IMG/VR virus record: IMGVR_UViG_3300048582_000075
Span: 1-25,352 of that record
Origin: a virus
DNA: 25,352 nt
Reading direction: 5' to 3' (one strand)
Positions 92-15,164 of this stretch are shown one piece after another. Within the stretch, counting starts at the first letter, position 1. Every line of letters begins with the position of its first letter. The position numbers and the translations under genes were made by a program. Under the pieces are notes generated by a model, which was not told where the DNA came from, ran no database searches, and worked only from the letters and a program-made list of their open reading frames with translations.

Positions 92-1135
92 TTATTTCCG
101 CGCCAAAGCCTCGCCAATCGCAACGACCGTGCGCGCTTGGTCAACATAGATGCGACGAATGTCGGCAACCCGCGCGACGCTCCAGCCCATGATGCCTGCG
201 ATCGTTTCGTCGGTTAGCCCAGCTAGGCAAAGCTCGGTGCAGAATGTGCCGCGCAAGTCATGCAGCCGCTTGCCGACTATGCCCGCCGCGTCTCGATGCG
301 CGTTGAACGTGCCGGTTAGTCCTGATTCCGTCCAAGGCTTGCCGCGACTGTTGACTAGCGCGGTCGTCACGCCGGGCGCGCGGTATCGGGTGCGAAGATC
401 GGCCAAAAGATCGGCCAAGGCTGGCACGCTCGGCACGGTAACAACCCGCTCGCCGCCGCTCTTGCCGGTGCGCCACAAAACGGAATACTCGCCAAATGCC
501 GACAAGGGCAGCTTGACTAGATCCCCGCGACGCAAGCCGGTGAATCGGGCAAGGTCTAGCGCGTCCTGTAGCTGCACCGGGAGCGTCGGGCGCAATAGGG
601 CAATGTCCTCTGGCGTCCAGACAATCGCCGCCCGGTTGCCGCCTTTATATAGGTTCGGAATGCCATCGGCGACGTTCAACGCAAGCCGCCCCTGCACCCT
701 GCCCCAACCTAGCAGCCCGCGCAGCACAGTGACGTGATAGTCAGCCTTGCGCGGCGTCGCGGCCATGCTCTTGCGCCATGCCATGATGTCGGCACGAAAG
801 CGGCGGTCATCGACTGCGCCCATGGGCGCTTTGCCGAATTGCCGCCCGATGTTGTCCAGGCACCGGCTCCACTCGTTGCGCGTCGTCGTGGCGAGGTTCG
901 ACCATTCCGGCGACGTGCGCCAATCTGCGATCAGCGCCGCCAGCGTTTCGGCGGGTGCGGCTAGGCGGCGCTGTTGCGCTTCTAGGTATGCGGCGACGGC
1001 TGCGGGTGTTAGGCGCGGCTTGGGGCCACCTTCAACGCGCATGATCTGCGGGCCACCTCGCCAAGCGTAGAAAAAATGAATGCACGGCTTGCCCGGTCGG
1101 CGCTTTAGGACATAGGCGACACCGGCGAGGCTCAT
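92..1135 (-). CDS. int: Tyrosine-family phage integrase
   Basis: Site-specific recombinase expected to integrate and excise the phage chromosome. The 347-aa protein has the usual layout: an N-terminal arm-type region (about 1-60), a core-binding SAM-like domain (about 62-150) and a C-terminal catalytic domain (about 175-335). Visible catalytic residues are Arg202 (in TGLRRGDL), Lys225 (RTGKSGG), His292-x-x-Arg295 (LHDLRGT), Trp318 where many members have His (GW instead of GH), and the nucleophile Tyr330 (RRIYVD). The ATG overlaps the upstream stop by four bases (ATGA), so it is translationally coupled to the small gene before it. It is the last complete gene of the leftward operon, where lambdoid phages also keep int. 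No excisionase is recognisable; one of the small neighbours could serve. No attachment core can be identified from one end alone. Confidence 0.93.
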   Translation of the reverse strand: MSLAGVAYVLKRRPGKPCIHFFYAWRGGPQIMRVEGGPKPRLTPAAVAAYLEAQQRRLAAPAETLAALIADWRTSPEWSNLATTTRNEWSRCLDNIGRQFGKAPMGAVDDRRFRADIMAWRKSMAATPRKADYHVTVLRGLLGWGRVQGRLALNVADGIPNLYKGGNRAAIVWTPEDIALLRPTLPVQLQDALDLARFTGLRRGDLVKLPLSAFGEYSVLWRTGKSGGERVVTVPSVPALADLLADLRTRYRAPGVTTALVNSRGKPWTESGLTGTFNAHRDAAGIVGKRLHDLRGTFCTELCLAGLTDETIAGIMGWSVARVADIRRIYVDQARTVVAIGEALARK

Positions 1136-2101: not shown

Positions 2102-2842
2102 TTAGGCTGCGGCGGGGTCGTAACCGTCGCCGTCCAGGCCGGGCGCGTCCGCATCGAGCGCAACGATGCCGCTGAGGAACGACTTCTTCAAAGCCGCAAC
2201 CGCGTCGATTTCATCGGCGAGCGTCTTCAAAACGCCGCGCACCTTTTCCAACCCGGTCGCGCGCTTTGCCATCAACTGGTCAAGCTCCTCCCGCGTTTCG
2301 GCGGCGTCGATCAGGGCGAGGGTCTTGCGCGCCCAGTCGCGGGTGGCGGCTTCCTTGTCCTCGTTAGACGCCGCCCCGGTTGACTGCCCGGCGTCGGTTG
2401 AGGGGGTTACAGCAGCGGCGTCGGGGAGTGACGCGGCGGGGGTGTTGGCGCGCTGTTGCAGCGGCTTGACCGTAAACAGCTTGCGGTTCTTCTTGTTCTC
2501 GGCAAGCGCCAGCGTGATAGGGCCGTCGATGTGGCTCATGTGGCTGATGCGGATGCCGCCGACCTTCATTCCGGCCCAAAGCACATCAGGGTCGCAATAG
2601 AGCGTCATCGACCGGCCTGCATACTTGGCGCTGTCTGCGCCCCATGCCGCCACGAGGACGCGCGACATCGACTTGCACGGGCGAAACACCTTGTTGTCGC
2701 CTTCGATCTTGACGGCAACCGGCTGCTCGGTGCCGGGCTGGACGTTGACGGCGGCGACCTTCACGGTGCGGCTAATGCCGACCAAATCGCCCGCGTTGAT
2801 CTGGTCGCTCTTGGCAACGATGACTTGTGACATATCGGACAT
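2102..2842 (-). CDS. Exonuclease-partner protein, possible ssDNA-binding or annealing protein
   Basis: A 246-aa protein encoded directly after the YqaJ-type exonuclease. The ATG at 2842 has an ideal AGGAGA site seven bases upstream, inside the end of the exonuclease gene. The N-terminal part (about 1-125) is beta-rich, with the segments VAVKIEGDNKVFRPCKSMSR, YAGRSMTLYCDPDVLW and VGGIRISHMSHIDGP. A Pro/Ala/Ser-rich linker follows (about 130-165). The C-terminal 60-70 residues are helical and charged (ETREELDQLMAKRATGLEKV) and end in an acidic tail. A beta-rich core, a flexible linker and an acidic C-terminus resemble the plan of single-strand-binding proteins, and exonucleases of this family are normally paired with an annealing protein. 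Neither RecT, Bet nor Erf is recognisable in it, so the role is inference from context. Confidence 0.8.
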   Translation of the reverse strand: MSDMSQVIVAKSDQINAGDLVGISRTVKVAAVNVQPGTEQPVAVKIEGDNKVFRPCKSMSRVLVAAWGADSAKYAGRSMTLYCDPDVLWAGMKVGGIRISHMSHIDGPITLALAENKKNRKLFTVKPLQQRANTPAASLPDAAAVTPSTDAGQSTGAASNEDKEAATRDWARKTLALIDAAETREELDQLMAKRATGLEKVRGVLKTLADEIDAVAALKKSFLSGIVALDADAPGLDGDGYDPAAA

Positions 2843-3516
2843 CAAAACATCTCCTGTTCAATCTTGCGCTCGGTCGCGATGAAGCGCCGGGCCTTGGTGT
2901 TGGCGTGAAAGTCGGCGATCACGGTCGCAACCTGGCGCTCGAATGTCGCCGCCGCTTCGATGATTGCCGCGTGAATTGCGGGGTCGGGCTCAACCCGGAT
3001 GACAGCCATCGGCAAGCCACCGCTGTAGCTGATAAAGTCCAGCCACTCGCGCCCGGTGACAAGCAGGCCGGTCTGGCACTGCATGACGTGCTCGTCTGGC
3101 ACGGTGCCGGATGCGATAGTCTGGACTTGGTATTTCTGGCGACGTGACTTGCCTTCGATCAGGCCGTCATCGCCGATCATGCCGTCCGGTGAATAGCCGA
3201 GCGTAAAACCCCATTCGTCATTGGTGACAAAGCCGACTTCATGCACCGGCGCGTAGTGCTTGGCATACAGGGCGCGCGCTTCGATCTCGTCAACGTGGCC
3301 GCGCAACATATCATCGCTGATGTAATGCGGCTCGACATAGCCGGTGATGCGCTGCGCTGCGATCTCGAACACGTGCGCGCGGCTCTTGTCGTTGTTGGCG
3401 ACTTTGAGCGTCGGCGTGATGATGTGCTTGATCTCGCTTGCCGTCAGCAAGCCGCACCGAGCCGCAAGCCATTGCTCGCTGCCCTGGTCGAAGCTGTCGT
3501 GAAAGGTGATGGTCAC
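2842..3516 (-). CDS. YqaJ/lambda-Exo-type recombination exonuclease
   Basis: Predicted PD-(D/E)xK 5'-3' exonuclease of the YqaJ viral recombinase family, which produces single strands for phage recombination. In 224 aa it shows the family marks: N-terminal GSEQWLAARCGLLTAS (substrate-contact region of the family), then GYSPDG with Asp111 and the LIEGKS strand with Glu121-x-Lys123 as the metal-binding and catalytic triad. HVMQCQTGLLVTG (about 143-155) matches the conserved helix with Gln. The GTG at 3516 is chosen because it forms a GTGA overlap with the upstream gene and lies eight bases after GAGGAG. A TTG one codon earlier is possible. The gene stands directly before its presumed recombination partner. 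Confidence 0.9.
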   Translation of the reverse strand: MTITFHDSFDQGSEQWLAARCGLLTASEIKHIITPTLKVANNDKSRAHVFEIAAQRITGYVEPHYISDDMLRGHVDEIEARALYAKHYAPVHEVGFVTNDEWGFTLGYSPDGMIGDDGLIEGKSRRQKYQVQTIASGTVPDEHVMQCQTGLLVTGREWLDFISYSGGLPMAVIRVEPDPAIHAAIIEAAATFERQVATVIADFHANTKARRFIATERKIEQEMF

Positions 3517-3788
3517 CAAGTCATCTCCTCAGCTTCCGACAAGTCCCGCGCTGTCGGCGCAACCCGCGCGGCGATCTCGGCGCGCTTGCGAAACAGGCTG
3601 ACGCTTGCCTTGGCGAGTGCCGACGAAAGCGCCGGGTCAACCTCTGACACGCACACATCGCCTTCGTGCATGGTCACGCACCAATGCGCGCCAAGGATGG
3701 GGCAGTTGATGCGGGCGGTTTCGAAGCGACGCACGCCGTCCGGGATGCGGGCGAGGATGGCGTCGGCTAGTTGGCGGTCGCTAATCAT
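3513..3788 (-). CDS. Hypothetical 91-aa protein
   Basis: Unrecognised. It starts with a helical segment (SDRQLADAILARIPDGVRRFE), continues with a short beta-like middle containing two Cys (NCPILGAHWCVTMHEGDVCV, plus a third Cys near residue 46), and ends with an Ala-rich helix and an acidic stretch. The three Cys and one His within about 25 residues could form a metal site, but the spacing matches no zinc motif I know. Four-base overlaps on both sides place it firmly in the leftward operon just before the exonuclease. Confidence 0.72.
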   Translation of the reverse strand: MISDRQLADAILARIPDGVRRFETARINCPILGAHWCVTMHEGDVCVSEVDPALSSALAKASVSLFRKRAEIAARVAPTARDLSEAEEMTW

Positions 3789-4213: not shown

Positions 4214-4602
4214 GCGAACAGACCGGCGATGAAGTGCCAGACGGCGCGGCGGGCGTCGTCGCGCGCCCTCCGCTTGCCAACCCGCGCCGCCTCAGTCGTC
4301 AGCGCGTCCAGCCAGTCCGCAGGCTTGGGATATGCGCGCTCAAGCCAGTCGGTTGCGGCGTCGTGGCTGTCGATCGACACGCCGTCTTCCGAGAAGGCGT
4401 CAAACAGCGCATCCGTGCCAGCGTCGCCAATCGTGTCGTGGCCGAGATAGTGCGCCAGTTCACGCAGGCAAAAGACCGTGACGGATGCGTCCAGCGTGTC
4501 GCCGAACATGTCGTCTGCGGTGAATTGGTCGCCTTCAAAGCGGGCCTGGAGCCATCCGGCATGGGCGTAATCGCGGACGGGGCCGAGGTAGAGGCGGCTC
4601 AT
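4210..4602 (-). CDS. Hypothetical 130-aa protein
   Basis: Unrecognised acidic protein. The ATG at 4602 (MSRLYLGPVRDYAHAGWLQ) overlaps the preceding stop by four bases and is preferred to a longer reading starting nine codons earlier, which would run into the upstream gene. A long central region is rich in Asp (QFTADDMFGDTLDA and DTIGDAGTDALFDAFSEDG), followed by DWLERAYPKPADWLDAL. The C-terminus is basic and helical. Many small anti-host or anti-restriction phage proteins are similarly acidic, but there is no specific match. Confidence 0.7.
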   Translation of the reverse strand: MSRLYLGPVRDYAHAGWLQARFEGDQFTADDMFGDTLDASVTVFCLRELAHYLGHDTIGDAGTDALFDAFSEDGVSIDSHDAATDWLERAYPKPADWLDALTTEAARVGKRRARDDARRAVWHFIAGLFA

Positions 4603-4838
4603 GCTGCCACCTGCTTGGCCAGCGGGCAAAGCACCGAACCTGCGACAGTGTAGTCAAACAGGTCATCGGTGCCGTCCTCGGTGACAACATTCCAAAGCGC
4701 GCGGATCTGGTTCGTCGTGCCAGCGGCGCGGATGGTTGCGGAAAGCAGGCGGGCATAGCCACCCGGATTGCCCGCCAGCAGATGCTGGCGAGCAGTAGCA
4801 ACCGATGCCGCGTTTGATTTGGTAAGAGAGAGTGCCAT
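4599..4838 (-). CDS. Hypothetical 79-aa protein, first gene of the leftward operon
   Basis: Unrecognised. It is mostly helical (MALSLTKSNAASVATARQHL, then a Gly-rich turn and YARLLSATIRAA), with a C-terminal part containing NVVTEDGTDDLFDYTVAGS. It is the first gene behind the predicted leftward promoter, whose start site would give a leader of about 55 nt, and a purine-rich GGGGCGGGGAAG precedes the ATG. The PL-proximal slot in lambda holds the antiterminator N, so this product, or the leader RNA itself, is the place to look for antitermination. The protein has no Arg-rich N-terminus like N. Confidence 0.72.
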   Translation of the reverse strand: MALSLTKSNAASVATARQHLLAGNPGGYARLLSATIRAAGTTNQIRALWNVVTEDGTDDLFDYTVAGSVLCPLAKQVAA

Positions 4839-4900
4839 CGAGGCTTCCCCGCCCCGATCACCGGCTGGCCTATCCAGCAGCGGCGTCGGGGTGTGGGGTC

Positions 4901-4929
4901 TTTATGGGACAATCCGTCCCTATGGTCAA
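4901..4929 (-). promoter_or_regulatory. Predicted leftward early promoter PL
   Basis: On the minus strand a -35 box TTGACC (4929-4924), a 17-bp spacer and a -10 box CATAAA (4906-4901) read toward the first gene of the leftward operon. The expected start is near 4894. Operator OL1 fills the spacer and touches the -10, and operator OL2 touches the first base of the -35, so a bound repressor would block RNA polymerase. Confidence 0.7.
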
Positions 4930-4943
4930 GGACAATTTGTCCC
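4906..4943. promoter_or_regulatory. Left operator pair OL1 and OL2
   Basis: Two 15-bp palindromic sites: OL1 at 4906-4920 (GGGACAATCCGTCCC) and OL2 at 4929-4943 (AGGACAATTTGTCCC). Their centres are 23 bp apart, about two helical turns. OL2 contains a perfect GGACAA-T-TTGTCC palindrome. They lie between the repressor stop and the leftward operon and are the mirror image of the right operator pair. They are presumably bound by the adjacent XRE repressor and by the Cro-like protein. Confidence 0.8.
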
Positions 4944-4958
4944 GACTGTGTATTTTAT

Positions 4959-5255
4959 TTAATCGGCAGAATCCCGCCGAAAATTGACAGGTCTGGCGAT
5001 TGGGCGCGGGCGATAGCCGCCGTTATGCTCGTGGCCGGTGAGGACGTAGCAGGGGTCACGATCTACGGTCAGCGCCAGTCGTTCGATAAGATAGTGCGGC
5101 AACGGCGAGCGCGTCTCATACTTCTTATAACGCTCAAAAGGCAGGTCTAAAGCCGACGCCATCTGCGCCTGGGTCCAGCCTCGCTCGATCCGCAGACGCT
5201 TCACCCGAGCGCAAAACGCCTCGTTGAAGGTTGCTTCGTCCGGCCATGTCGTCAT
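4959..5255 (-). CDS. Short XRE-type phage repressor (CI-like)
   Basis: Predicted lysogeny repressor binding the flanking operators. In 98 aa it has one HTH_XRE domain (about 13-60) with the helix-turn-helix RIERGWTQAQMASALDLPFE and the recognition helix running into RYKKYETRS. A short basic tail follows (RPRPIARPVNFRRD). It ends there: there is no S24/LexA-type peptidase or long dimerisation domain, so RecA-triggered self-cleavage is not expected. The ATG at 5255 is chosen over a longer reading because the family domain starts just after it and because a TACAAT -10 box stands exactly six bases before it, implying a leaderless mRNA. It is divergent from the Cro-like gene. No terminator separates its stop from the leftward operon, so its transcript may read on. 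Which of the two divergent proteins is the maintenance repressor is inferred from position. Confidence 0.82.
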   Translation of the reverse strand: MTTWPDEATFNEAFCARVKRLRIERGWTQAQMASALDLPFERYKKYETRSPLPHYLIERLALTVDRDPCYVLTGHEHNGGYRPRPIARPVNFRRDSAD

Positions 5256-5261
5256 GCGCGT

Positions 5262-5267
5262 ATTGTA
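5262..5267 (-). promoter_or_regulatory. -10 box of repressor-maintenance promoter (PRM-like)
   Basis: TACAAT on the minus strand, six bases before the repressor ATG. No -35 box is present at 16-18 bp (the 17-bp position reads CGCCGG). A start seven bases after the -10 would fall on the A of the ATG. Operator OR2 is centred at -43 relative to that start, where a bound activator commonly contacts polymerase. Confidence 0.55.
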
Positions 5268-5290
5268 ACCCCGGAACGGAAAATCCGGCG

Positions 5291-5328
5291 GGGACAAATT
5301 GGCCTTGACGGTGGGGACGATTTGTCCC
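5291..5328. promoter_or_regulatory. Right operator pair OR2 and OR1
   Basis: Two 15-bp sites, OR2 at 5291-5305 (GGGACAAATTGGCCT) and OR1 at 5314-5328 (GGGACGATTTGTCCC), with centres 23 bp apart exactly as in the left pair. OR1 lies inside the PR spacer, centred at -19. OR2 overlaps the first base of the PR -35 and lies at -43 of the repressor promoter. Spacing, order and orientation relative to the promoter equal those of OL. Confidence 0.8.
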
Positions 5329-5333
5329 ATTAA
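5305..5333 (+). promoter_or_regulatory. Predicted rightward early promoter PR
   Basis: A -35 box TTGACG (5305-5310), a 17-bp spacer and a -10 box CATTAA (5328-5333) read toward the Cro-like gene, whose ATG begins six bases after the -10. The expected transcript starts at or next to the ATG. The geometry is the same as PL base for base. Confidence 0.7.
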
Positions 5334-5339
5334 TCGGCC

Positions 5340-5552
5340 ATGGACACAGCAACACTTGATTGGCCTTTGGTCGATAGCGCAGCAGCCGCACTAGGCGCTG
5401 GCAACGAGGCAAGGCGCAAATGGCGGCAAGCTGGCAGGCGCGTTCCTGCTGACTGGCGCATCCGCATTGCCGAACACCTGACCGCGCAAGGCGTCGCGGT
5501 TGCGCTGTCCGACTTTGACCGGCTGCCGACTTCGACGCGGCGCGCCGCATGA
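5340..5552 (+). CDS. Cro-like HTH regulator, first rightward early gene
   Basis: A 70-aa protein divergent from the repressor gene. A helix-turn-helix is visible in residues 10-45: AAAALGAGNEARRKWRQAG followed by RRVPADWRIRIAEHL. This matches the Cro/YdaS-type pattern in which a skipped Gly-containing turn leads to a recognition helix with KW, then VPxxWR. It probably competes with the repressor for the same operators and tips the switch to lytic growth. There is no Shine-Dalgarno site; the ATG is six bases from the PR -10 box, so the mRNA is probably leaderless. The stop overlaps the next possible start (ATGA). Confidence 0.78.
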   Translation: MDTATLDWPLVDSAAAALGAGNEARRKWRQAGRRVPADWRIRIAEHLTAQGVAVALSDFDRLPTSTRRAA

Positions 5553-5716
5553 CTTCTTCCAACCAATACCGGGCGACCACCGCCCGCGTATCTCGTGGCG
5601 CTCCCCCCTGCCGCCACGATGACACTACCCGCCCGGCTTGCAGCCTCACGGCTCGCCGGGCGGGGTTTTTCGATCTGGGGGCAAATCAACATCATGACGG
5701 GGTGAATACGCTATGA
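5549..5716 (+). CDS. Possible 55-aa coupled ORF spanning a terminator
   Basis: An open frame joins the Cro-like gene to the next gene by ATGA overlaps at both ends (it starts MTSSNQYRATTARVSRGAP and ends NQHHDGVNTL). Its second half, RRAGFFDLG, is the translation of the terminator hairpin and its U-run. Similar RAGFF peptides appear in many annotated phage genomes and may only reflect such terminators. If real, ribosomes translating it would disrupt the hairpin and let transcription continue, so it could act as a leader peptide. If not, the stretch is untranslated. Confidence 0.35.
   Translation: MTSSNQYRATTARVSRGAPPCRHDDTTRPACSLTARRAGFFDLGANQHHDGVNTL
5628..5670 (+). terminator. Rho-independent terminator after the Cro-like gene (tR1-like)
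   Basis: A perfect 10-bp stem CCCGCCCGGC (5628-5637) / GCCGGGCGGG (5655-5664) is followed by GTTTTT. The loop holds a smaller stem, AGCC-TCAC-GGCT. It would stop most PR transcription before the replication genes, as tR1 does in lambda, and implies some form of antitermination or translation-coupled read-through. Confidence 0.75.
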
Positions 5717-6159
5717 ACGCCAGCAACGTCTTACCGAAACCGCAGCCGCTAACGGAAAGCGATTACCGCCGACTGTTGGCAAAAGGCATCGCCCGCGTGA
5801 CGGGCAACACCGAGGTCGGGCGCTTTGGTATTGCCACCGGATGCGGCGAGAAGACCATGCGGAACGCCCGCGACGAGAAGACCTCGCTGCACGGTGCGAC
5901 TGCGTTCAATATGTTGCTGCAAGACCCGACCGCGCTTGACGAAATCCTTGCGGCGCTCGGGTTCCGGTTGTCGCCTGTTGAATCGGCGATGGGCGAGGAG
6001 GCCCGGCTGCTGTCTGACACGGCGGCGCTGATGGCTATTCATGCGGACGCTCTGGCTGATGGCCGCGTCGATCACGTCGAGGAAGCGCGCATCATCAAGG
6101 CGGCGCGCCCGGTGGCTTTGGCTTTGAATGCGCGGATTGCGCGGGCTGGTGTTGCATGA
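5713..6159 (+). CDS. Putative phage regulatory protein (CII-position)
   Basis: A 148-aa protein with a possible helix-turn-helix in residues 33-60 (TEVGRFGIATGCGEKTMRNA) followed by a helical region with ALDEILAALGFRLSP. Beyond residue 85 it is a long Ala-rich helical tail (SDTAALMAIHADALADGRVD, then an Ala/Arg-rich helix). The order repressor, Cro, this gene, then replication genes puts it in the slot held by cII in lambdoid phages, and the length is comparable to phage regulators of that class, but I see no sequence match. The ATG at 5713 follows GGGGTG. The stop overlaps the next gene's start. Confidence 0.72.
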   Translation: MNASNVLPKPQPLTESDYRRLLAKGIARVTGNTEVGRFGIATGCGEKTMRNARDEKTSLHGATAFNMLLQDPTALDEILAALGFRLSPVESAMGEEARLLSDTAALMAIHADALADGRVDHVEEARIIKAARPVALALNARIARAGVA

Positions 6160-13175: not shown

Positions 13176-13591
13176 CCAACCACCGCCCTTGCACCTACCG
13201 CCCCGAATACTGCGACCTTGCGATTGAGGCGGGCAAGAATGGCAAGTCGCTCGTTTGGGTCGCGGCTCAGATTGGCGTTACCAAAGTGACGATCTACAAC
13301 TGGATCGAGAAGTTTCCCGAGTTTGCCGAAGCCATGGCGCTGCGGACGGTTCACGCGCAAGCCAAGTGGGAAGACATCGGGCAAGAGAACCTGATTACGC
13401 CGGGCTTCAGCGCCTCGGCTTGGTCGCGTTCGATGGCCGCGCGCTTCCCGGACGACTGGCGCGAGGTCAAGGGGACTGAATTGTCTGCGCCTGGGGGCGG
13501 GCCGATCCAAACTGAAACCAAGACGACCGTTGACGTGGCAGGGTTAAGCGATGAGCAGCTTGCAGCGCTTGCCTCAATTCACACCGGCTGA
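13172..13591 (+). CDS. terS: Terminase small subunit
   Basis: A 139-aa protein that should recognise phage DNA and start packaging. The N-terminal helix-turn-helix is clear: KSLVWVAAQIGVTKVTIYNW (about 27-46), followed by IEKFPEFAEAMALRTVHAQA and SASAWSRSMAARFPDDWRE. This is the pattern of the Terminase_2/ HTH small subunits that bind DNA as rings. The Gly/Pro linker and acidic C-terminus (VDVAGLSDEQLAALASIHTG) would contact the large subunit. Its ATG overlaps the tailspike stop, and its end overlaps the large-subunit gene by 41 bases. Confidence 0.88.
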   Translation: MTNHRPCTYRPEYCDLAIEAGKNGKSLVWVAAQIGVTKVTIYNWIEKFPEFAEAMALRTVHAQAKWEDIGQENLITPGFSASAWSRSMAARFPDDWREVKGTELSAPGGGPIQTETKTTVDVAGLSDEQLAALASIHTG

Positions 13592-15164
13592 CGTTCACGC
13601 GGCACGCAAGGAGCTTTCGCGCCGCCACCTGTCAGAGTTTGCGCGGATGGTGGATATTCCCACTGTGCCGCTGTCGGACGATGACGAGGAAGACAATTTT
13701 TCGATTATCCGCATCAAGCGCCTTGCGGATCACCACAAGCTAATCTGCGATAGCCTGACCAAGGTTGAACGCGGCGAAATCCCTAACTTGATGCTGCTGT
13801 TTCCGCCCGGCTCGGCAAAATCGACTTACGCTGACGTGCTATTCCTTCCTTGGTTCATGGCGCTAAAGCCGCGCCGCAACGTCATTCTCGCCAGCTACGC
13901 CAGCAACCTCGCCGCAAAGCAGGGACGCCGGGCGCGACAGCTAATTAAGTCAAGTTCCTTTCTAAACCTAACCGGGCGCTGCCTAGACCCAAGCAAGACC
14001 GCCGCCGACGAGTGGATGCTAGATAACGGCAGCGAGTTTATGGCGGGCGGGCTGCTGTCGGGATTGACCGGCAACCGCGCGCATCTTGGCGTTATGGATG
14101 ACCCTATCCAGGGCCGCGAGCAGGCGGAAAGCAAGACGATCCGCGACAAGACGTGGGAGGCTTACACAGACGACTTTTGCAGCCGCCTGATTCCGGGTGC
14201 GCCGCAGGTCATGATCTTGACGCGGTGGCATCAAGACGACCCCGCAGGCCGCATTTTGCCGGAAGATTGGAACGGCGAAAGCGGATGGTTTGACGGGCGC
14301 GACGGGCGGCGCTGGTATGTGCTTTGCTGTCCTGCCATCTGCGACCGGCCCGACGACCCGCTAGGCCGGAAGATTGGCGAGACGCTTTGGCCGGAATGGT
14401 TCAGCCTAGAGCATTGGAAGCCGTTCCAGCGCAACGCGCGCACTTGGACTAGCCTTTATCAGCAGAAGCCAGCGCCAGACGAAGGCACGTTCCTGAAAGA
14501 AGCGTGGTTTCATCGCTACGGAACCGCCGACAAGCCAAAGGCCCTGAACTATTACATGACAAGCGATCACGCGCCGAAAGGTGGCACGGGGTCGGATTGG
14601 AATGTGTTCAACATTTGGGGCATCGACGCAAAATCTAATATGTGGCTGGTGGACGAATACCGCTGCCAAGACACTTTCGACGTTGCTGTGGGTATCAAAC
14701 ACGACGAACGCGGCAACGCTACGGTTGCGGACGTTGGTGCTTTGGCGCTGATAAGACGTTACAAGCCGTTTGCATGGTTTCCTGAAGACGACGCAACGTG
14801 GAAGGCTTCAGAGCCGTTTATTCGCGCTGCGATGAGGCGAACGGGCGTCCATTGCCGGATTGAACCACTTTCGACCGCAGGCGGCGACAAGCCGACAAAG
14901 GCGCAACCGTTTCAGGCAAAGGCAAGCATGGGGGAAGTCTATCTCCCCGCTGGTTTTGTCGGTGACGAGATTATTAGGGAATACAAGTCTTTCCCCGCTG
15001 GAAAGCATGATGACCGAGTAGACGCGGCGGCAAACATGGGCCGCGCGCTCGATATGGCACACCCGGCGATCATAGCCAGCACACAACCGAAAGTCCCAAC
15101 GAGCCGTTGGGATAGAGCCTTTGCAGGCAATGACGAGGAGGCGGACAGTTGGAAGACAGCCTGA
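13551..15164 (+). CDS. terL: Terminase large subunit
   Basis: A 537-aa ATP-driven packaging motor with a nuclease domain. Motifs: Walker A PPGSAKST (85-92, the variant GSAKS form common in this family), Walker B LGVMDDP (179-185), coupling motif MILTRWHQDD (221-230). The RNase-H-like nuclease domain shows MTSDHAPKG (Asp339) and GKHDDRVDAAA (Asp487/488, Asp491). The ATG at 13551 lies 41 bases inside the small-subunit gene and is supported by AAGCGATGAG; the family N-terminus (about 80 residues before Walker A) fits. Rare codons (CTA, ATA, AGA, AGG, TCT) are more frequent here than in the flanking genes. P22-like portal and headful-type TerL together suggest headful packaging, though ends cannot be read. 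Confidence 0.93.
   Translation: MSSLQRLPQFTPADVHAARKELSRRHLSEFARMVDIPTVPLSDDDEEDNFSIIRIKRLADHHKLICDSLTKVERGEIPNLMLLFPPGSAKSTYADVLFLPWFMALKPRRNVILASYASNLAAKQGRRARQLIKSSSFLNLTGRCLDPSKTAADEWMLDNGSEFMAGGLLSGLTGNRAHLGVMDDPIQGREQAESKTIRDKTWEAYTDDFCSRLIPGAPQVMILTRWHQDDPAGRILPEDWNGESGWFDGRDGRRWYVLCCPAICDRPDDPLGRKIGETLWPEWFSLEHWKPFQRNARTWTSLYQQKPAPDEGTFLKEAWFHRYGTADKPKALNYYMTSDHAPKGGTGSDWNVFNIWGIDAKSNMWLVDEYRCQDTFDVAVGIKHDERGNATVADVGALALIRRYKPFAWFPEDDATWKASEPFIRAAMRRTGVHCRIEPLSTAGGDKPTKAQPFQAKASMGEVYLPAGFVGDEIIREYKSFPAGKHDDRVDAAANMGRALDMAHPAIIASTQPKVPTSRWDRAFAGNDEEADSWKTA

Follow-up and report, generated by a model that had tools for sequence, protein, structure and literature searches.

The two matching blocks that flank a small repressor gene in this viral DNA are the left and right control regions (OL/PL and OR/PR) of the lambda-type immunity region of a temperate phage. 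The whole explanation of the switch, in which a repressor dimer on palindromic sites would close both promoters and activate its own promoter PRM, is given a probability of about 0.86. Judging from the sequence and its relatives, it is very likely that one small repressor shuts both promoters by means of matching pairs of sites. The window referred to below is the whole stretch of 25,352 nucleotides that was analysed.

Gene content of the phage region

The gene order of the window is that of a lambda-type temperate phage. As in such phages, the repressor gene lies between the divergent promoters PL and PR, each of which is overlapped by operators. PL would drive the recombination and integration genes, and PR would drive the Cro-like, CII-like and replication genes; replication proteins are found among the rightward genes, beside the Cro-like and CII-like ones. 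The main genes are the following:

92-1135, minus strand: tyrosine integrase, end of the left operon (PF00589, 2e-10; phrog_1, 4e-28)
2842-3519, minus strand: YqaJ/RecE-like exonuclease, left operon (PF09588, 1e-13; phrog_149, 3e-28)
4959-5255, minus strand: CI-like repressor, 98 aa, single helix-turn-helix (HTH) domain (profile, AlphaFold2 and PDB matches)
5340-5552, plus strand: Cro-like protein, 70 aa, first gene of PR (homologues at the same place)
5713-6159, plus strand: CII-like regulator, right operon (phrog_101, E 3.6e-05)

The window was also scanned for Rfam families and tRNAs, without a match. The terminase large subunit (13551-15164) is, among phage records, closest to that of the cyanophage Pseudanabaena phage Pan3, with 46% identity. 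The integrase matches in plasmids come from alphaproteobacteria, and from these the host class is guessed to be alphaproteobacteria.

Sequence and layout of the two blocks

The earlier note had counted 36 identical bases of 43, without gaps, between 4943 down to 4901 on the minus strand and 5291 up to 5333 on the plus strand, and a recount gave the same figure. When positions 4600-5700 were resampled 100 times with a first-order Markov model, the highest-scoring inverted 43-mer had 32 matches. Exact 13-bp sites of the form GGACN5GTCC start at 4907, 4930 and 5315, and the site starting at 5292 has one mismatch; outside the two blocks, no exact GGACN5GTCC occurs in the whole window. On both sides the order is operator 2, TTGAC, operator 1 and CATNAA, with a spacer of 17 bp. 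The claimed distance of 23 bp between operator centres is found on the left (4913 and 4936) as well as on the right (5298 and 5321), together with the 17-bp spacers, and the midpoints of the two operator pairs are 385 bp apart, as had been claimed. The elements are arranged as follows:

4901-4929, minus strand: PL core, with TTGACC (4929-4924), a 17-bp spacer and CATAAA (4906-4901)
4906-4920: OL1, GGGACAATCCGTCCC, overlapping the PL -10 and spacer (sequence; kept in relatives)
4929-4943: OL2, GGGACAAATTGTCCT on the minus strand, adjoining the PL -35 upstream (sequence; kept in relatives)
5262-5267, minus strand: PRM -10, TACAAT, 6 nt before the repressor ATG
5291-5305: OR2, GGGACAAATTGGCCT, one half-site off consensus (sequence; relatives share the offset)
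5305-5333, plus strand: PR core, with TTGACG (5305-5310), a 17-bp spacer and CATTAA (5328-5333) (sequence)
5314-5328: OR1, GGGACGATTTGTCCC, overlapping the spacer and -10 of PR and lying 72 nt upstream of the repressor ATG

The centre of OR2 lies 43 nt upstream of the predicted start of PRM, which is the repressor ATG. No -35 consensus is present for PRM in the window, where CGCCGG stands at 17-bp spacing, and a third right operator, OR3, is likewise absent from the window (score -16 at the position of the PRM -10). An operator near -42 combined with a weak PRM -35 is a mark of lambda-type switches and, by position, is found here, and the overlap of OR3 with PRM is missing from the window.

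Conservation in related viruses

A search of related viruses for the paired sites, which the earlier note had proposed as a check, bore out the arrangement: homology to the repressor identified 30 viral contigs, and in every one the repressor gene is flanked by such sites on either side. The sites are exact on both sides in 28 of them, and the remaining two (L025 and L027) have one mismatch upstream. When viral contigs were scanned independently, by DNA alone, the half block O2-TTGAC-O1 turned up in 56 contigs, and in 55 of these a repressor gene adjoins the sites (54 recognized by HMM and L106 by inspection of its open reading frames), L087 being the sole contig without one; in such pattern-selected loci one half block is guaranteed by construction, and the opposite side is not. 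The comparative set consisted of 74 non-redundant loci.

Of the 72 loci with a scoring OR1, 49 have it at -72 relative to the repressor ATG. The distance between OR2 and OR1 is 23-24 bp in relatives, and the OL pairs are 22-25 bp apart, with OL2 mostly 23-24 bp from OL1. Some loci have no recognisable OR2, and OR3 is present on the PRM -10 in 38 of the 74; one example is GGACATAATGTCC, which stops 2 nt short of the ATG. Parsimony on the tree requires OR3 to change 12 times and OR2 16 times; hence, the number of operators changes readily.

OR2 is lacking in a sub-group of loci (L030-L043), where OR1 is accompanied by an OR3-like site, GTACAATTTGTCC, that ends directly at the ATG, and where the left side has one strong OL site and, at a distance of about 67 bp, a weak one. 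In L008, the left operators are separated from the repressor by a gene for a 237-aa protein (1379-2092), placed like the rex genes of lambda, and in other relatives up to about 2 kb lies there. A tandem array of 15-nt units, with at least 13 copies in register, is present in L010 (1502-1809), and its translation consists of pentapeptide-like repeats.

The repressor and the reading of its sites

Residues 16-54 of the repressor match HTH_31/HTH_3, slightly under the Pfam cut-offs. The AlphaFold2 model has five helices with a mean pLDDT of 85 and a low-confidence tail, and places the recognition helix at residues 40-48. The nearest solved folds are C.BclI, 434 Cro, 434 repressor and C.AhdI; the comparison with C.BclI (Foldseek TM 0.61/0.77, E 1.4e-3) assigns the protein the fold of the C proteins, and its best profile match among solved structures is 434 repressor. 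With 98 aa and an HTH domain only, it does not have the C-terminal domain that provides cooperativity and RecA-stimulated cleavage in lambda-type repressors, and neither the profile search nor the model revealed a C-terminal or oligomerisation domain. A search of phage records with the repressor gave no match, and a search of plasmids gave weak partial matches and no others. Two partial HTH matches in Arachidicoccus, from one scan of genome contigs, were judged unrelated. The Cro-like protein has a helical AlphaFold2 model, for which no fold match was found in the PDB.

The earlier note had proposed two divergent promoters with two operators each, in identical geometry, under one repressor, and this is backed not only by the conservation in relatives but also by covariation between protein and DNA. 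The base that flanks the 13-bp palindrome is the same across the operators of one genome and differs between genomes, the mean majority fraction per genome being 0.77, compared with 0.57 ± 0.014 when sites were permuted. The repressor column that is most informative for this base is residue 40 (1.41 bits). Glutamine at this residue goes with A (28/28), alanine, proline or serine with T (19/19) and leucine, phenylalanine, tyrosine, lysine or arginine with G (11/11), giving 58 rows with zero exceptions, in residue classes that were drawn after the table was seen. The 58 rows leave out one genome with an unclear flank and those with valine or threonine at residue 40, in which the flank base is mixed. 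The window has Phe40 and a flanking G. In a tree computed with the recognition helix excluded, residue 40 and the flank base each underwent four changes, all of them coincident; an independent-pairs test of the covariation had few changes on well-supported branches and hence no power for significance.

In an HMMER alignment, residue 40 falls on Gln28 of 434 repressor, a residue in contact with the outermost base of the operator. Replacement of this Gln28 by alanine in the laboratory reportedly shifted the preference at the outermost base from A to T. Because the flank base covaries with residue 40, the computational case for the 98-aa protein as the reader of all four sites is strong. It is considered somewhat probable that residue 40 determines the outermost base of the operators by a nearly one-to-one code, with all operators of a genome shifting together. 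If this is true, immunity specificity would evolve through one residue together with coordinated changes at four to five sites, and nature would repeat the laboratory switch of 434 repressor from Gln28 to Ala. Through the covariation of residue 40 with base 7, the way in which repressor-operator specificity evolves can be tested with a few synthetic sites.

Proposed switch and starts of the transcripts

In the proposed mechanism, a dimer of the 98-aa HTH repressor would read the GGACN5GTCC palindromes. When bound at OL1 and OR1, it would cover the spacer and the -10 of each promoter and so close PL and PR. Since PRM is without a -35 and OR2 is centred at -43 (-42 in lambda), a repressor bound at OR2 would be placed to activate this promoter, that is, its own. 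OR3, in those relatives where it is present, would turn PRM off, resulting in negative autoregulation.

In 46 of 71 loci, exactly 6 nt separate the end of a -10 hexamer from the repressor ATG, and the mean -10 score at that position is 2.1, compared with a shuffle maximum of -4.1. The cro ATG follows OR1 by 11-15 nt in 63 of 72 loci and, in the window, follows the PR -10 by 6 nt. As the -10 is so close to each ATG, the mRNAs of both the repressor and the Cro-like protein are probably leaderless and start at the AUG. Leaderless mRNA has been shown for cI and for paaR2 (PMC8630535).

Alternative explanations

It might be supposed that the repressor is a longer product of 123 aa that starts at an ATG at 5330, inside OR1. 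The repressor frame is indeed open upstream through OR2 and OR1 (5256-5330) in 55 of 72 loci, compared with 21-23 for the other sense frames, and close relatives share similarity of the form MGQIVPxVKxN/D in the upstream extension. However, an in-frame start near OR1 exists in just 14 of 72 loci, the longer product would require a promoter upstream of PR, and the conserved -10 stands 6 nt before the start of the 98-aa form; the 123-aa product is thus unlikely. It is very improbable that the Cro-like protein is the main user of the operators and that the 98-aa protein binds elsewhere. The Cro-like gene, too, is conserved beside OR1, and in lambda both proteins use shared sites, but the operator flank covaries with a residue in the recognition helix of the 98-aa protein and the left operator pair is retained although cro is present only on the right.

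The earlier note had regarded PL and PR as copies of one element and their distance as suited to DNA looping, as with lambda CI, and neither claim was sustained. The left-right identity reflects common function and a duplication event is not demonstrable, since the match is concentrated in the functional core and left blocks match foreign left blocks equally well (30.9/43 with the left blocks of other genomes, 29.7/43 with their own right blocks). In the window, left and right agree at 27 of 29 core positions (half-sites, flanks, -35 and -10) and at 9 of the 14 others; of pairs taken from different genomes, 6% attain this non-core value. A recent duplication of one element in this phage, with duplication or gene conversion keeping the copies identical, would account for the high identity between the blocks and for a left-right identity above the 26.9 obtained with permuted partners; yet this excess lies largely in the flank bases, which are set by the common repressor (2.53 vs. 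1.18 of 3), the non-core excess is small (6.7 vs. 5.9 of 14), and such an origin is judged improbable. Bridging of the left and right operator pairs by the repressor, in the style of lambda CI, is a doubtful proposition as well. The pairs do flank the repressor gene in nearly all relatives, but the protein is a single HTH domain with a low-confidence tail, the distance from OR1 to OL1 in relatives ranges from 376 to 2124 bp without helical phasing of the OR-OL distance (Rayleigh p 0.5-0.99), and additional genes are inserted between the pairs, e.g. in L008.

Comparison with known systems

Two operators per side had been called unusual, which does not stand: OL1, OL2, OR1 and OR2 are already annotated in Rhizobium phage 16-3 (NC_011103) (PMC12429752), and many relatives of the window have a third right operator, as described above. 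Like the window, phage 16-3 has its repressor gene between two pairs of operators, one pair on either side, with the -35 between the operators or at the inner one and the outer OR2 overlapping the PR -10. It differs in operator sequence, in spacing (17 on the left, 26 on the right) and in its C repressor, which has 263 aa and no detectable similarity (BLASTP E 0.40), so that homology within one family was not found.

The lambda, 434 and P22 CI-Cro systems share with the window the divergence of PL and PR, an OR2 near -42 of PRM and a similar gene order; the HTH domain is homologous to that of 434 repressor, many relatives have OR3 on the PRM -10, and the repressor mRNA appears to be leaderless, as for lambda cI. 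In contrast to these systems, the window repressor is without a C-terminal domain for cooperativity or cleavage, the window has neither OR3 nor OL3, and the Cro mRNA is apparently leaderless too. Phage 933W likewise has no OL3, and its repressor was reported to be non-cooperative at adjacent sites (PMC3317979); it differs in having OR3 and in its repressor and operators.

The same 15-bp core is the proven target, AGGACAAATTGTCCT, of the 434-like HTH region of M.SsoII/M.Ecl18kI (PMC3978073, PMC3695355), and GGACN5GTCC is also known as a motif in Mollicutes (PMC5282649). An Ecl18kI restriction-modification (R-M) regulatory site, AGGACAATTTGTCCT (L111, 1501-1531), shares the core with the phage operators. 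M.Ecl18kI was considered as an outside test of the residue-40 rule and was set aside, as its recognition helix differs and aligns at the N-terminal part only. R-M controller (C) proteins resemble the repressor in that C.BclI and C.AhdI are among its best fold matches; they differ in governing R-M genes, whereas the present sites lie in a phage immunity region with integrase, exonuclease and CII-like genes. CTX-type RstR repressors (NF041951) are weakly matched by 54 of 64 family members, and membership was rejected for the window repressor, with 28.9 bits against a cut-off of 80.

Set beside these systems, the relatives make up a family of some 74 non-redundant switches in phages, in which the repressor has a single domain, the geometry shows no sign of looping, OR3 is optional and two genes are probably leaderless. 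The family is a compact natural set of variants in which to ask how much of the lambda paradigm, namely OR3, cooperativity and looping, a stable switch requires.
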